DNA of 64,000 nt. It comes from Streptococcus uberis (lineage in GTDB: Bacteria; Bacillota; Bacilli; Lactobacillales; Streptococcaceae). Under the pieces are notes generated by a model. The model was not told the DNA's origin and searched no databases. It worked only from the letters and a program-made list of their open reading frames with translations. Shown piece after piece: positions 59,754 through 64,000 of this stretch; within the stretch, counting starts at the first letter, position 1, and each line of letters opens with the position of its first letter. The stretch covers positions 1,087,001 to 1,151,000 of the forward strand of contig NZ_LS483397.1 in the NCBI RefSeq assembly GCF_900475595.1, given 5' to 3'. The translations under genes and the position numbers were made by a program.

Positions 59754-60512
59754 TTAGTCAAATAATAAATAGTAATCCGAAATAGTCATTTGAGCTTTCT
59801 GCTCTTTATTGAGATCTTTGATGATTTTACCATCTTTCATGACAATGAGACGATTGCCATAAGTCAAAGCATCTTCCATATGGTGTGTAATCATGAGGGC
59901 TGTTAATTGGTCCTGACTAACAAAATGATCCGTTAAAGCCATGAGGGAACGGCTGGTCCTAGGATCTAGAGCTGCAGTATGTTCATCTAATAACAATAGG
60001 TCCGGCTTCTTTAAAGTTGCCATTAACAGACTTAAAGCCTGACGCTGACCTCCAGATAAGAGACCTGTCGGCGTGTCTAAGTGATTTTCTAAACCATTGC
60101 CCGTTCGTGCCAATAATGCCTTAAAGGTATCTTTTTTGCTAGCGATACTGCGTTTTAGCAATTGTCGTTTCTGTCCCCGTTTTTCTGCAATCAAGAGGTT
60201 TTCAGCAACCGTCATACGAGGTGCTGTTCCCATTTTGGGATCCTGAAAAACACGTGCTAAGAAGCTGGCTCTTTTTTCAGCTGGCATATAGGTCACATCT
60301 TGCCCCAAAATCTTGATTTGACCACTGCTCAAAGTGAGGTTGCCAGCAATAACATTAAACAACGTCGATTTGCCTGCCCCATTACCACCTAAAACGGTAA
60401 TGAAATCATGTTCATAGATGGTCAAGGTAACCTTGTCCAAGATGGTTTTAGAATCGTCAAATCCATTATTAACCACCAAACTAGCATCAATGAGTTCAAT
60501 TATTTTTTTCAT
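59754..60512 (-). CDS. trpZ: ABC transporter ATPase (TrpZ type)
   Basis: The protein has 252 residues. Walker A is LGGNGAGKSTLFN, the signature is LLSGGQRQALSLLMA, Walker B is LLLLDEHTAALD and the switch His is in MITHHMEDAL. Walker B ends in EHT where most have EPT, a common variant in this family. It energises uptake with the adjacent permease and binding protein. Its ATG overlaps the permease stop by four bases, so it is coupled. The tryptophan assignment rests on the operon leader. Confidence 0.8.
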   Translation of the reverse strand: MKKIIELIDASLVVNNGFDDSKTILDKVTLTIYEHDFITVLGGNGAGKSTLFNVIAGNLTLSSGQIKILGQDVTYMPAEKRASFLARVFQDPKMGTAPRMTVAENLLIAEKRGQKRQLLKRSIASKKDTFKALLARTGNGLENHLDTPTGLLSGGQRQALSLLMATLKKPDLLLLDEHTAALDPRTSRSLMALTDHFVSQDQLTALMITHHMEDALTYGNRLIVMKDGKIIKDLNKEQKAQMTISDYYLLFD

Positions 60513-61378
60513 CTGCTCACCTTAATCCCTTTAAAGAAACGTTGTCTCAAAACAGGTACCATGAGACAAAGCGCTAAGACAATGGCACTAAATAATTTCA
60601 AATAGTTGGTATTGAAGCCCAAGGCAATTACAAGCATAATAAGAAATTGGTAGAGGATTGAACCTACTATAATAGCGACCAAGCGTTCAAAAAGCGTCAA
60701 TCCTGTCGAGTAGAGAACTTCACCAATAATGATGCTTGCCAAACCGATGACAATAACACCAATCCCTTTGGAAACATCTGCATAACCATCTTGTTGACTG
60801 ACAAGAGCACCTGATAAACCAATCAAGGCATTTGAGACAAGCAGTCCCATCATTTCCATGCGGTCCGTATGTATGCCAAAACTCTTAGCCATCTCACGGT
60901 TATCACCCGTGGCAATATAAGCCTGGCCAAGATCAGTATAGAGAAAATAAATCAGTAAGAAGATAATGACCAGAACGGCTAGGAATCCCATGAGAAGATT
61001 ATTAACCTCTGAAGAAAATGGAAGGTAATCTTGCAGGCGTTTTAAGTCATGAAGCCCTAAATTGGCCCGTCCCATAACCATTAGCATAATAGAGTTACAA
61101 GAGGTCATAACCAAAATCCCCGCCAAAATAGTTGGAATTTTTCCCTTGGTATATAAAAGACCCGTTATGAGACCTGCCAAAGCTCCCGCTGCCATCCCTA
61201 AAATGGTTGCTAATATAGGATTAAGGCCCTGATTAAGGGCTGTAACAGCTACTGCTCCCCCTAAAGGAAAGGAGCCTTCTGTGGTCATATCAGGAAAATT
61301 TAAAATACGAAAGGTCAAATAGATGCCTAAACCAAGTACACCCCATAAAAGACCTTGTGAAACTGCTGAGATAATCAT
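60509..61378 (-). CDS. trpY: ABC transporter permease (TrpY type)
   Basis: The protein has 289 residues with about eight to nine hydrophobic segments. The start MIISAVSQGLLWGVLGLGIYLTFRIL and LNFPDMTTEGSFPLGGAV belong to the branched-chain-type permease family found with PF04392 binding proteins. It forms the membrane channel of the transporter. It is 15 bases after the binding-protein gene and overlaps the ATPase gene. Confidence 0.8.
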   Translation of the reverse strand: MIISAVSQGLLWGVLGLGIYLTFRILNFPDMTTEGSFPLGGAVAVTALNQGLNPILATILGMAAGALAGLITGLLYTKGKIPTILAGILVMTSCNSIMLMVMGRANLGLHDLKRLQDYLPFSSEVNNLLMGFLAVLVIIFLLIYFLYTDLGQAYIATGDNREMAKSFGIHTDRMEMMGLLVSNALIGLSGALVSQQDGYADVSKGIGVIVIGLASIIIGEVLYSTGLTLFERLVAIIVGSILYQFLIMLVIALGFNTNYLKLFSAIVLALCLMVPVLRQRFFKGIKVSR

Positions 61379-61393
61379 AAGTACCCCTTTCTC

Positions 61394-62389
61394 CTATTTG
61401 TTAAGAATATCAGATTCTTTTTGCAAAGCTTCTGGGATCGTCACTCCCAGTTTATCAGCCACAGCTTTATTAATGACGGGTTTCCCATTGTCAACGACTT
61501 TAACAGGTACTTGTGAAACGGATTTACCAGCCAATAACTTCTTAACCTGCTTGGCTGTTTCTACCCCTAGTTGGTATTGGTTTTGGTTAACGGATGCCAG
61601 ACTACCATCTCTAACCATAGTATCGACGCTGGAGTAGACTGGCAAGTTGGCAGCATTGCTTGCGCTGACCACAGAGGCAAAGGCCGAAGCAATGGTGTTG
61701 TCTTGTGGGATAAATAAAGCATCTACCTTCTGTGTCAGAACTGACATGGTTGATGGTACTTCATTTGTTGAAGGAACTGCATAAGGGATAACTTCAAACC
61801 CTTTTACTTTGGCAAAAGCTGTAAAGTCTTTAACTTGTGAAAGGGAATTGTCCTCATTGCTAGCATAGAGCACTCCGATTTTTCTCACTTGTGGCGTTAG
61901 ACTTTTAATCAGTTGAACGGTTTGTTTTAAGGGCACCTTGTTGGATAATCCTGTAACATTTCCCTCTGGTTTGTCTAGGTTTTTTACTAACTTTGCACCT
62001 ATGGGATCCGAAATAGCCGACATGACAACAGGTACTTTTTTACTGCTAGTTGCTAATCCTTGGGCTGCTGGTGTAGCAATTCCAATGACGATATCATTGC
62101 CTTTGTCTACCAGTTGGTGGCTCATGGTCTGTATTTTACTTTGGTCGCCTTCAGCATTCATTAGTGTGATTTGCAGTTTTTGATGAGAACTTGGATTTTT
62201 TTGCAGTTCGTCTTCAATGCCTTTTTCAATTTGGTCAAGTGCCTCATGAGTTACCAATTGTAAGATACCGATTTTGACCACTGGTTTTTGTTTTAATGCT
62301 AGTTGTTTATTGTCTTTCTCAAAAAAGAGGGATAAAAAAACCAGACTTGTGATCATAATGAGTGTTGCTATTAAACTTTTATTTTTCAT
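61394..62389 (-). CDS. trpX: ABC transporter substrate-binding protein (TrpX, PF04392 family)
   Basis: The protein has 331 residues. The N-terminus LIATLIMITSLVFLSLFF is hydrophobic but has no lipobox; the whole protein has no cysteine, so it is either anchored by this segment or released. The mature part begins VVKIGILQLVTHEALDQIEKGIEDEL, followed by the type I periplasmic-binding fold (IVIGIATPAAQGLA, VPVVMSAISDPIGAKLV). It captures the substrate, probably tryptophan, for the permease and ATPase downstream. AAAGGAG precedes the ATG. An attenuator with two Trp codons controls the operon. Confidence 0.8.
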   Translation of the reverse strand: MKNKSLIATLIMITSLVFLSLFFEKDNKQLALKQKPVVKIGILQLVTHEALDQIEKGIEDELQKNPSSHQKLQITLMNAEGDQSKIQTMSHQLVDKGNDIVIGIATPAAQGLATSSKKVPVVMSAISDPIGAKLVKNLDKPEGNVTGLSNKVPLKQTVQLIKSLTPQVRKIGVLYASNEDNSLSQVKDFTAFAKVKGFEVIPYAVPSTNEVPSTMSVLTQKVDALFIPQDNTIASAFASVVSASNAANLPVYSSVDTMVRDGSLASVNQNQYQLGVETAKQVKKLLAGKSVSQVPVKVVDNGKPVINKAVADKLGVTIPEALQKESDILNK

Positions 62390-62416
62390 TCATATCTCCT
62401 TTCATTGTCCTGTTTA

Positions 62417-62462
62417 TGCAAAAAGAAAAAGCACCCAGTCAGAGAATCTACTAAGCGCTTTT
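62417..62462 (-). terminator. Attenuator terminator in the trpXYZ leader
   Basis: AAAAGCGCTTAGT and ACTGGGTGCTTTT form a 13-bp stem with several G-U pairs, followed by a T-rich tract. It lies between the leader peptide and trpX, where a terminator would serve only regulation. Confidence 0.8.
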
Positions 62463-62477
62463 TTATCAGAGTATTAG

Positions 62478-62522
62478 CGCATAGATACTTTTTAGAAGTG
62501 CTCTAAAAGTCGTATCTATGCG
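62478..62522 (-). promoter_or_regulatory. Antiterminator-region hairpin of the trpXYZ leader
   Basis: CGCATAGATAC and GTATCTATGCG form a perfect 11-bp stem, extended inward by ACTTTTAGA with TCTAAAAAGT. A copy of GCATAGATA also lies in the end of the leader peptide gene, so the two copies can compete for the same partner. Confidence 0.7.
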
Positions 62523-62539
62523 AGTCCATAAACACAACT

Positions 62540-62584
62540 TTATCTATGCCAGCTTTGCCAATTTGTCATCATAGTTGTGTTCAT
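62540..62584 (-). CDS. Trp-containing leader peptide of the trpXYZ operon
   Basis: The 14-residue peptide MNTTMMTNWQSWHR has Trp at positions 9 and 12. AAAGGAAG lies eight bases upstream of the ATG. The first codons (AACACAACT) can pair with AGTTGTGTT just after the stop codon (62531-62539), forming a hairpin around the Trp codons. Ribosome stalling at these codons when charged tRNA-Trp is short would change this pairing. The gene is too short to be a metabolic protein; position and content indicate a regulatory leader peptide. Confidence 0.82.
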   Translation of the reverse strand: MNTTMMTNWQSWHR

Positions 62585-62613
62585 TTCTTGGACTTCCTTT
62601 CGTTTTTTTATTC

Positions 62614-62641
62614 ATTATAGCTTAATTTTTAGAAATTGCAA
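62614..62641 (-). promoter_or_regulatory. Promoter of the trpXYZ operon
   Basis: TTGCAA (62636-62641), a 16-base spacer and TATAAT (62614-62619) on the minus strand. Transcription should start near 62607, about 20 bases before the leader peptide. Confidence 0.75.
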
Positions 62642-62680
62642 GACTTTAGAGAAAATTTTTTCAAGTGGGACCTGCCTTTA

Positions 62681-62689
62681 TGTTATAAT
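62681..62689 (+). promoter_or_regulatory. Extended -10 promoter of the RqcH/FbpA gene
   Basis: TGTTATAAT (hexamer 62684-62689) lies about 30 bases before the ATG at 62720. The -35 is weak. Confidence 0.6.
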
Positions 62690-62719
62690 GATAGGACGAA
62701 ACGACAGAAAGGAGAAACC

Positions 62720-64000
62720 ATGTCTTTTGACGGCTTTTTCTTACATTATTTAACTGAGGAGCTTTCTGATAAACTTCTGAATGGACGAATTCAAAAAGTG
62801 AACCAACCCTACGAGCGTGAATTAGTTCTAGGCGTCCGAAATCATCGCCAGAATTTTAAAGTCCTCATTTCAGCCCATCCTGTTTTTGGGCGCATTCAAT
62901 TAACGGATAGCAATTTTCAAAACCCACAGGTGCCAAACACCTTTACCATGATTATGAGAAAATACCTTCAAGGTGCTGTCATTGAATCATTTAAGCAAAT
63001 AGATAATGACCGAATTATCGAGATTGGTGTCTCCAATAAGAATGAAATTGGTGATGACATCAAAACGACCTTAATCATTGAAATTATGGGTAAGCACAGC
63101 AATATCATCTTAGTAGATCGCAATCAAAATAAAATTATTGAGTCTATTAAGCATGTTGGCTTCTCACAAAATTCTTACAGAACTATTTTACCTGGCTCAA
63201 CATATATCGAGCCACCTAAGACAGGGGCAAAAAATCCTTTTACCATTGAGGATGAACCCCTTTTTGAAATCTTACAAACCCAGGACCTTTCTCCTAAAAA
63301 CCTTCAAAAACTTTTCCAAGGCTTAGGTCGTGATACAGCTAACCAACTGGCAGAGCGGTTGACAACAGATAAATTAAAGGTATTTAGACAGTTCTTCAAT
63401 CAGGAAGTCTCACCTCATCTCACTCAAAATGCTTTCTCAGCAGTTCCTTTTTCAGATAGTGGCCAATCCTTTGAACAGCTCTCTGAACTTTTAGATTATT
63501 ACTACTTAGAAAAAGCAGAGCGTGACCGAGTTAGTCAACAAGCCAGTGATTTAATACACCGTGTCCAAAATGAATTGGATAAAAACCGTCTCAAATTAAG
63601 GAAACAAGAAGCCGAATTGAAAGCTACTGAAAATGCTGAAGACTTTCGGCAAAAAGGAGAATTGCTGACCACCTATCTTTCCTTGGTTCCTAATAATAAA
63701 GAATCGGTTACCTTAGATAACTATTACACTGGTGAACCACTTACCATTTCTTTAGATTTAGCCCTTAGCCCTAATCAAAATGCCCAACGCTACTTTAAAA
63801 AATACCAAAAACTAAAAGAAGCTGTTAAACATTTATCTGGCCTAATTGAAGAAACTAAGCAAAGCATTCATTATTATGAAAGTGTTGAGTACAATCTCTC
63901 ACAGGCTAACCTTGATGAAATCGAAGATATTCGAGAAGAATTGGTTCAAGCTGGTTTTATGAAGCGTCGTGCAACAGACAAACGCCACAAACGTAAAAAA
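62720..64000 (+). CDS. RqcH/FbpA-type NFACT protein (3' end outside window)
   Basis: The frame starts at ATG 62720 with AAAGGAG upstream and stays open for 427 codons to the window edge. It begins MSFDGFFLHYLTEELSDKLL and continues with the NFACT-N domain (FTMIMRKYLQGAVIES, IIEIMGKHSNIILVD, ISAHPVFGRIQLT). A coiled-coil region follows (QQASDLIHRVQNELDKNRLKLRKQEAELKATEN). Homologues (Fbp54, PavA) were described as fibronectin-binding proteins; the family also includes RqcH, which adds alanine tails to stalled nascent chains. The quality-control role is ancestral, and surface activity is not shown here. Confidence 0.94.
   Translation, partial: MSFDGFFLHYLTEELSDKLLNGRIQKVNQPYERELVLGVRNHRQNFKVLISAHPVFGRIQLTDSNFQNPQVPNTFTMIMRKYLQGAVIESFKQIDNDRIIEIGVSNKNEIGDDIKTTLIIEIMGKHSNIILVDRNQNKIIESIKHVGFSQNSYRTILPGSTYIEPPKTGAKNPFTIEDEPLFEILQTQDLSPKNLQKLFQGLGRDTANQLAERLTTDKLKVFRQFFNQEVSPHLTQNAFSAVPFSDSGQSFEQLSELLDYYYLEKAERDRVSQQASDLIHRVQNELDKNRLKLRKQEAELKATENAEDFRQKGELLTTYLSLVPNNKESVTLDNYYTGEPLTISLDLALSPNQNAQRYFKKYQKLKEAVKHLSGLIEETKQSIHYYESVEYNLSQANLDEIEDIREELVQAGFMKRRATDKRHKRKK

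Follow-up and report, generated by a model that had tools for sequence, protein, structure and literature searches.

The window, a stretch of 64,000 nucleotides of Streptococcus uberis DNA (contig NZ_LS483397.1), carries on its minus strand a tryptophan transporter operon of the trpXYZ type, and upstream of trpX lies a leader with a promoter, a small reading frame and a series of RNA segments able to pair in alternative ways. The features, in positions of the window, are as follows.

62614..62641, minus strand: promoter, with TTGCAA (-35, 62641-62636), a 16-nt spacer and TATAAT (-10, 62619-62614)
62593..62600, minus strand: Shine-Dalgarno-like AAAGGAAG of the leader ORF
62540..62584, minus strand: leader ORF, MNTTMMTNWQSWHR followed by a stop, with Trp codons 9 and 12 at 62560-62558 and 62551-62549
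62573..62581, minus strand: segment A (AACACAACT), which would pair with B on a leader without a ribosome (9 bp, -9.6 kcal/mol)
62541..62550, minus strand: segment A' (GGCATAGATA, the end of the leader ORF), able to pair with D
62527..62540, minus strand: segment B (AAGTTGTGTTTATG), the proposed partner of C during a stall on a Trp codon
62507..62522, minus strand: segment C (CGCATAGATACGACTT), the left arm of P1
62476..62487, minus strand: segment D (TATCTATGCGCT), the right arm of P1 and the antiterminator arm
62522-62478, minus strand: hairpin P1, with C as left arm and D as right arm
62447..62464, minus strand: segment E, the left arm of the terminator and alternative partner of D
62426..62443, minus strand: segment F, the right arm of the terminator, continuing into a T-run
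61394..62389, minus strand: trpX, tryptophan ABC transporter substrate-binding protein (NCBIfam NF041285 ABC_SBP_TrpX, 443 bits, cut-off 390)
60509..61378, minus strand: trpY-type permease, named by position (family match weak, below cut-off)
59754..60512, minus strand: trpZ-type ATPase, named by position (generic ABC ATPase, with no model at cut-off among those shown)

The closest solved structure to the TrpX of the window is 3lft. Upstream of its gene, the promoter, ribosome-binding site, leader with two Trp codons and stop that a first-pass annotation of this DNA had described are all present on the minus strand, from 62641 to 62540. The promoter matches 10 of 12 consensus positions, which alone is not above chance (1 found vs 1.4 in shuffles), and, judged by eye, a TATAAT-type box stands at the same place in the majority of 30 streptococcal loci inspected. 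The leader reads ATG AAC ACA ACT ATG ATG ACA AAT TGG CAA AGC TGG CAT AGA TAA (62584-62540). Together with its ribosome-binding site it forms a short ORF that is predicted to be translatable, and its control codons 9 and 12 specify tryptophan ahead of TrpX, so that codons and operon match.

RF04312, the Rfam 'trpB motif', has one match at gathering score in the whole window (cmscan), and this match, at 62522-62419 on the minus strand, covers P1 and the terminator (67.6 bits, gathering cut-off 59). The genome of the window holds 3 TrpX matches vs only one match to RF04312. The family was published in 2024 as SRC-39-1, an orphan strong riboswitch candidate with more than 900 members, and is listed among the strongest unsolved riboswitch candidates (PMC11109978). 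In the available parts of that paper, the authors could not exclude a protein factor or a classic attenuator, and the trpB motif is not placed in the separate class formed there for uORF motifs. P1 and the terminator are shared between the published motif and the window, and an amino-acid-type ABC transporter and trpB are found downstream in both. The leader peptide, A' and B all lie upstream of P1, where the Rfam model begins, and are therefore not covered by it; the same parts of the paper do not describe these three elements (PMC11109978). Our literature search on 'trpB motif' returned PMC11109978 only. A reading of the element from P1 alone, as in the Rfam consensus, is insufficient because B and A', outside the Rfam model, pair with C and D.

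We searched for RF04312 at E<=0.001 in genome samples that overlap one another. Matches occur in 49 of 247 Streptococcus genomes (50 matches, all fetched), in 26 of 87 genomes in the window's family, in 160 of 295 drawn from its order and in 5 of 398 from its phylum, as well as in 40 of 194 genomes in the order and 12 of 291 in the class of G859, which belongs to the same phylum as the window and to another class. We presume G859 to be clostridial because the binding protein of L085, a locus from the same order, matches Clostridioides difficile CD0873 at 424 bits. Among 228 loci obtained, 225 were readable, with L220, L232 and L233 dropped at contig ends. All 50 Streptococcus matches were read, as were the given loci and 60 picked among the further matches listed in the window's order, the given loci and 20 of 30 others in the window's family, the given loci and 20 of 29 others in the order of G859, and the given loci from the phylum and from the class of G859; best-scoring matches are over-represented owing to this choice. 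The rule for a leader was a start codon, a Shine-Dalgarno-like stretch, 8-36 codons, control residues among the last 14, and a stop located between 60 nt upstream and 8 nt downstream of the P1 start; Phe/Tyr leaders had to have at least four such residues here and, more loosely, at least two in the gene table used below.

Conservation of the leader is evident from this computation. A control-codon leader is found by rule in 210 of the 225 loci, compared with 204 of 4500 dinucleotide shuffles of the same regions, and these 210 comprise 100 W-x-x-W, 42 other Trp, 36 Phe/Tyr, 24 His and 8 Leu leaders. Chance production of the more distinctive types is rare: W-x-x-W leaders occur in 100 of 225 loci vs 1 of 4500 dinucleotide shuffles, and His leaders likewise in 1 of 4500 shuffles. 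The expectation of the first-pass annotation that the Trp codons should be conserved across streptococci is borne out, with a W-x-x-W leader in 46 of the 50 Streptococcus loci; the other four, L105-L108, are the weakest matches (at most 39.2 bits). Nearly all of the Trp leaders that lack a W-x-x-W pair (33 of 129 in the set used for fold counts) have a single Trp codon. Eight further loci missed by the rule have a leader by eye (L061, L062, L157, L217, L257, L264, L266 and L270). Neither rule nor eye found one in seven matches of 37.6-48.3 bits, namely L058 and L059 (two of the five from the phylum), L105-L108 and L154; these were kept as misses among the 225 and excluded from the duplex, fold and gene-table counts. 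Leader types also differ by group, being mostly Trp in the window's order and His, Phe/Tyr or Leu in the presumed clostridia. The leaders of a sister genus (g393) are His or Phe-Tyr-Trp, and Phe/Tyr leaders are found in the window's order (L159, L168) and family (L251) as well.

Within Trp leaders the ending WQ[SN]W(R/H)x is common, as might be expected if free tryptophan, and not uncharged tRNA, stalled the ribosome via the leader peptide in a TnaC-like manner. We consider such nascent-peptide arrest highly improbable, because at other loci this ending is swapped for FFFSFFR, YYYNYYR, HHHH or LLLLANLR with the RNA chassis retained, which suits codon sensing, and because the last letters of the ORF belong to A', which is able to pair with D.

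The RNA segments form a chain of helices, B:C, C:D, D:E and E:F, each of which excludes the next. The first base of B is also the last one of the leader stop codon, and in the window AAGUUGUGUUUAUG of B (62540-62527) pairs with CAUAGAUACGACUU of C (62520-62507) over 14 positions, three of them G-U. The competing segments in the first-pass annotation were real, but its list lacked the key B:C helix, the D:E antiterminator and the Rfam family. The two copies of GCATAGATA that it pointed to (near 62549-62541 and at 62521-62513) are indeed both able to pair with TATCTATGC at 62487-62479. Its first-named pairing, 62573-62581 with 62531-62539, is an exact 9-bp match, yet it is a protector hairpin (A:B) that would favour termination and not the antiterminator; we read it as a protector because its exact match in the window contrasts with a weak pairing among loci at large (reached by <=5% of shuffles in 12 of 56), and A:B as the switch itself was rejected on the same count. 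A terminator is likewise present, with arms at 62463-62447 and 62443-62426, although a duplex fold gives it 17 pairs with one bulge in place of the 13 bp first proposed; a simple terminator scan did not report it, though the RF04312 match spans it.

Duplex and fold counts were made on L001-L168 only, giving 161 loci, or 160 (without L011) for the folds. The B-C duplex energy is reached by <=1% of shuffles in 137 of the 161 loci and by <=5% in 150, and in 2801 of 3220 comparisons native duplexes score better than those with a partner taken from a divergent locus; B:C is absent from the model used to find the loci. For covariation, 56 of the 161 loci were picked for diversity and aligned by sequence, with the structures drawn from the consensus of the same alignment. 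Shuffle counts are not probabilities here because related sequences can exceed shuffles, and with this reading 10 of 12 B:C pairs are changed on both sides and 0 of 500 shuffles reach any of five measures. The corresponding counts are 0/500 on all five measures for C:D, 0/500 on four measures and 2/500 on the fifth for E:F, and 0/500 on three measures with 6/500 and 13/500 on the others for D:E. In all four helices, the number of paired cells and the covariation score fall at every slide of 1-3 columns. Thus the compensatory changes that the first-pass annotation had called for are found by computation in four alternative helices. For A':D, 28 of 56 loci have a pairing that <=1% of shuffles reach and 39 of 56 one reached by <=5%, and the native combination beats a swapped one in 2210 of 3060 comparisons; at L086 the His codons themselves lie within A'.

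These pairings bear on the possibility of a metabolite-binding riboswitch, in which P1 and the elements around it would recognise tryptophan, or a ligand related to it, by direct binding. The published classification as a strong candidate (PMC11109978, as far as its available parts go) and the strong conservation of the P1 sequence within streptococci speak in favour of this idea. However, the conserved P1 letters are mostly those needed for pairing with B, D or E, and the relay alone could explain their conservation. Furthermore, each readable match of at least 49 bits has a leader ORF, by rule or by eye, whose codon type varies with the downstream gene, and the motif is shared by His, Trp, Phe/Tyr and Leu leaders. 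Direct ligand binding therefore seems to us very unlikely as compared with ribosome-mediated attenuation.

To represent switching, we computed minimum-energy folds of transcripts ending just before F, assuming that the ribosome reaches 12 nt from the first base of its A-site codon. With a ribosome at the last control codon, D:E is predicted in 123 of 160 loci and absent in 37; with the ribosome at the stop codon, D:C is predicted in 148 of 160 and D:E in 12. A mutually exclusive terminator and antiterminator are thus indicated both by the covarying B:C, C:D, D:E and E:F helices and by a predicted switch, with both states as expected in 111 of 160 loci and the reverse in 0 (last control codon). 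Allowing any control codon raises D:E to 141 of 160 and both states to 129 of 160, and leaves 19 of 160 still without D:E, including 3 of 5 His leaders. Shuffling B lowers D:E to 119 of 1590 folds, to be compared with 123 of 160, both with the last codon only. In folds without a ribosome, C or the leader occupies D in 142 of 160 loci and E does so in 17, with D left free in 1.

As for ribosome positions, kinetics and the response to tryptophan, we infer a relay made of segments A, A', B, C, D, E and F. With no translating ribosome, A:B (or A':D), C:D and E:F would form and transcription would terminate. When tryptophan is plentiful, a ribosome at the leader stop would cover A' and the 5' half of B, and C:D and E:F would again give termination. 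When tryptophan is scarce, the ribosome would stall with Trp codon 12 in its A site. In the window, this codon and the rest of the ORF through the stop codon span exactly 12 nt; because the assumed reach ends at the stop codon, A' would be covered and B free except for its first base. B could then take C, the freed D could take E, and the terminator would come too late to prevent transcription of trpXYZ. When F is part of the transcript, the terminated fold of the window's leader is the most stable, even with a stalled ribosome, and readthrough must therefore be kinetic. Such dependence on the order of synthesis is usual for attenuators. The uncoupling of transcription and translation in some Firmicutes would argue against attenuator timing.

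We conclude that a ribosome-mediated transcription attenuator sensing charged tRNA-Trp very probably controls the trpXYZ importer operon, on a chassis that recurs with swapped codons. This agrees with the first-pass annotation in that a Trp attenuator precedes a TrpXYZ-type operon, given the conserved leader, the covarying helices and the lack of a T-box, but the design differs from the plain four-segment one of E. coli. In the trpL and his leaders of E. coli, a ribosome stalled at Trp (or His) codons selects an antiterminator, and otherwise a terminator forms. A short control-codon leader and a stall-selected antiterminator are common to those systems and the window. However, the E. coli leaders use four segments (1:2, 2:3, 3:4), whereas the relay of the window is longer by one switch step, in which B:C releases D and D:E blocks the terminator, and a further element able to pair with D lies within the last part of the leader ORF. 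Histidine leader peptides have been proposed in Firmicutes for His genes, including hisZ/hisS paralogs and his operons (PMC2965389; PMC9413887), and leaders, with mention of chains of RNA helices, were proposed for L. lactis lysQ and hisZ by Lopatovskaya 2010, as cited in PMC4833913. Some of these may be RF04312-like loci (HisZ; amino acid permeases), although in the available parts of these sources they are not linked to the trpB motif, to Trp, Phe/Tyr or Leu versions or to one shared chassis. Lopatovskaya 2010 may overlap our findings in part. Judging by titles, the starts of abstracts and passages, none of the papers listed in our searches ties a Trp leader peptide to streptococcal or lactobacillal trp genes or to the trpB motif. 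Regulation by ribosome-mediated attenuation has long been known; the relay, the codon swaps and the reassignment of RF04312 appear to be new.

The first-pass annotation had remarked on the absence of a T-box, and there is none at Rfam threshold in the window and none at E<=1 in 62300-62750. A T-box reading of the window's leader was rejected in view of this lack of an RF00230 match and of 0 T-boxes in the 20 RF04312 trpX loci scanned (E<=0.05). TrpX relatives are found in 244 of 247 Streptococcus genomes. We scanned 40 trpX upstream regions without RF04312, which were chosen and not random (the first 20 being the best TrpX matches without RF04312 and the second 20 lying lower down); at E<=0.05, 27 have a T-box, 0 have RF04312 and 13 have neither (L174-L176, L178, L183, L185, L186, L189, L191-L193, L195 and L198). 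None of the 60 trpX loci scanned has T-box and RF04312 together. This mutual absence before trpX suggests that two unlike sensors of the same signal replace one another. A comparison of named records, covering five loci only, gave a T-box before trpX in S. sanguinis, RF04312 before trpX in S. didelphis and S. plurextorum, RF04312 before a trpB that stands upstream of trpX in S. porci, and neither element at gathering score in S. gallolyticus, where the T-box scores 67 bits at L177. At L177 and L179, a small ORF containing Trp and Arg (RWR.LG) is seen by eye between the T-box match and trpX. According to the available parts of PMC9382623, the trpX T-box of S. suis is shown by mutation, one is predicted in S. 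pneumoniae, and none is reported in S. pyogenes. Those T-boxes and the attenuator of the window share an operon and a signal, the state of tRNA-Trp (PMC9382623), but in a T-box the tRNA binds the RNA directly and there is no leader peptide, whereas the attenuator of the window has one.

We assigned the genes downstream of 217 leader-bearing loci by tblastn, using 20 seed proteins as queries, and named representatives by NCBIfam and Pfam (L217, with its leader by eye, was left out here and added for the binding-site comparison below). Named enzymes, TrpX and TrpP provide the independent test of a codon-gene fit, and in this computation they agree closely: HisS/HisZ genes follow a His leader in 12 of 12 cases (four HisS representatives above the NCBIfam cut-off, two HisZ-like ones below theirs), TrpB genes a Trp leader in 6 of 6, TrpP genes a leader with Trp in 2 of 2, a single DAHP synthase a Phe/Tyr leader, and members of the TrpX family a leader with Trp in 122 of 125 and Phe/Tyr in 3. 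The other transporter families (NSS, BrnQ-like, permeases) do not fix the substrate. The 32 NSS transporters have 24 Phe/Tyr and 8 Leu leaders, BrnQ-like carriers Phe/Tyr leaders in 5 of 5, the polar-amino-acid ABC permease a His leader in 6 of 6, one group of amino acid permeases a His leader in 6 of 6, another group of 11 mixed Phe-Tyr-Trp leaders in 10 and Tyr in 1, and the TrpY-like permease a leader with Phe, some beside Val, in 5 of 5. One OppA-like locus has a Trp leader, and 5 of the 217 loci have no gene assignment. In Lactococcus lactis, the substrates of the transporter FywP are Phe, Tyr and Trp; LysQ, or HisP, is a permease for His. Genus g393 is presumably Lactococcus, and FywP and HisP would fit its FYFW and HHHVHR leaders. 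Among the titles listed in our literature search, none was judged to be of a paper on these transporters.

This fit also bears on whether an RNA-binding protein, or plain constitutive partial termination, might control the operon in spite of the leader ORF. The available parts of PMC11109978 leave room for a protein factor, but the covarying alternative helices and the codon-gene fit need no protein, and no single protein explains the codon swaps. We judge this explanation extremely unlikely, and attenuation by the ribosome remains our reading.

The substrate-binding sites of the TrpX-type proteins offer a further comparison. In the available parts of PMC6816091, selectivity within this protein family goes with a glutamine for Trp (Gln-284 of SP1069, 3LFT) and with a tyrosine at its place for Tyr (CD0873, 6HNI) or Phe (VC_1101, 3LKV). 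Gln-271 of the window's protein aligns with a Gln of 3LFT and with Tyr of 3LKV and 6HNI, and the alignment suggests that it occupies the published selectivity position, as does an Ala/Glu position 16 residues earlier that fits PMC6816091. Gln is found there in 123 of 123 proteins behind Trp leaders and Tyr in 3 of 3 behind Phe/Tyr leaders (126 leader-bearing proteins out of 127); the protein of L105, the sole one of the 127 without a leader, has Tyr. The three Phe/Tyr-leader proteins are nearest to 6HNI and score 316-319 bits with the TrpX model (cut-off 390), compared with 3LFT and 443 bits for that of the window, the only Trp-leader protein included in these two comparisons. Resolution of Phe from Tyr by the leader is not supported: L085 has Phe codons, yet it has Glu where CD0873 has its Tyr-selecting Glu (a Tyr-type site), and the leader therefore does not distinguish the two.

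Taken together, RF04312 is likely to represent one codon-programmable attenuator chassis, re-aimed during evolution among Trp, His, Phe/Tyr, Phe-Tyr-Trp and Leu while shifting between biosynthesis and transporter genes, and standing in for the T-box in part of Streptococcus. The more than 900 published members of this RNA family would thereby gain a likely function, and there would be a possible answer for trpXYZ operons without a T-box, as reported for S. pyogenes in the available parts of PMC9382623. A broad set of ribosome-controlled attenuators would also be added for Gram-positive bacteria. In at least one Gram-positive model species, transcription is thought to outrun translation, and such attenuators thus make coupling in these hosts directly testable. 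Because the run of leader codons would be the chassis's only sensor, a few codons may reveal the substrates of many unassigned transporters (NSS, BrnQ-like, TrpX-like).

Several individual loci are of interest in this regard. The Phe/Tyr leaders of L063, L070, L075, L079 and L080 precede carriers of the BrnQ family (a branched-chain amino acid carrier by NCBIfam at L063, BrnQ by similarity at the other four), which suggests aromatic substrates for these carriers. At L240 and L252, YYYW leaders stand ahead of loci with an aromatic-type permease, the first ORF of L240 being a GNAT acetyltransferase. At L031, an ORF about 546 nt after the start of P1, similar by eye to a group II intron reverse transcriptase, occupies the expected position of the transporter. 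L104 combines a W-x-x-W leader and RF04312 (39.4 bits) with a membrane-type protein about 129 nt after the start of P1, which has no Pfam or NCBIfam match at 1e-10 and is possibly an unnamed Trp-related transporter.
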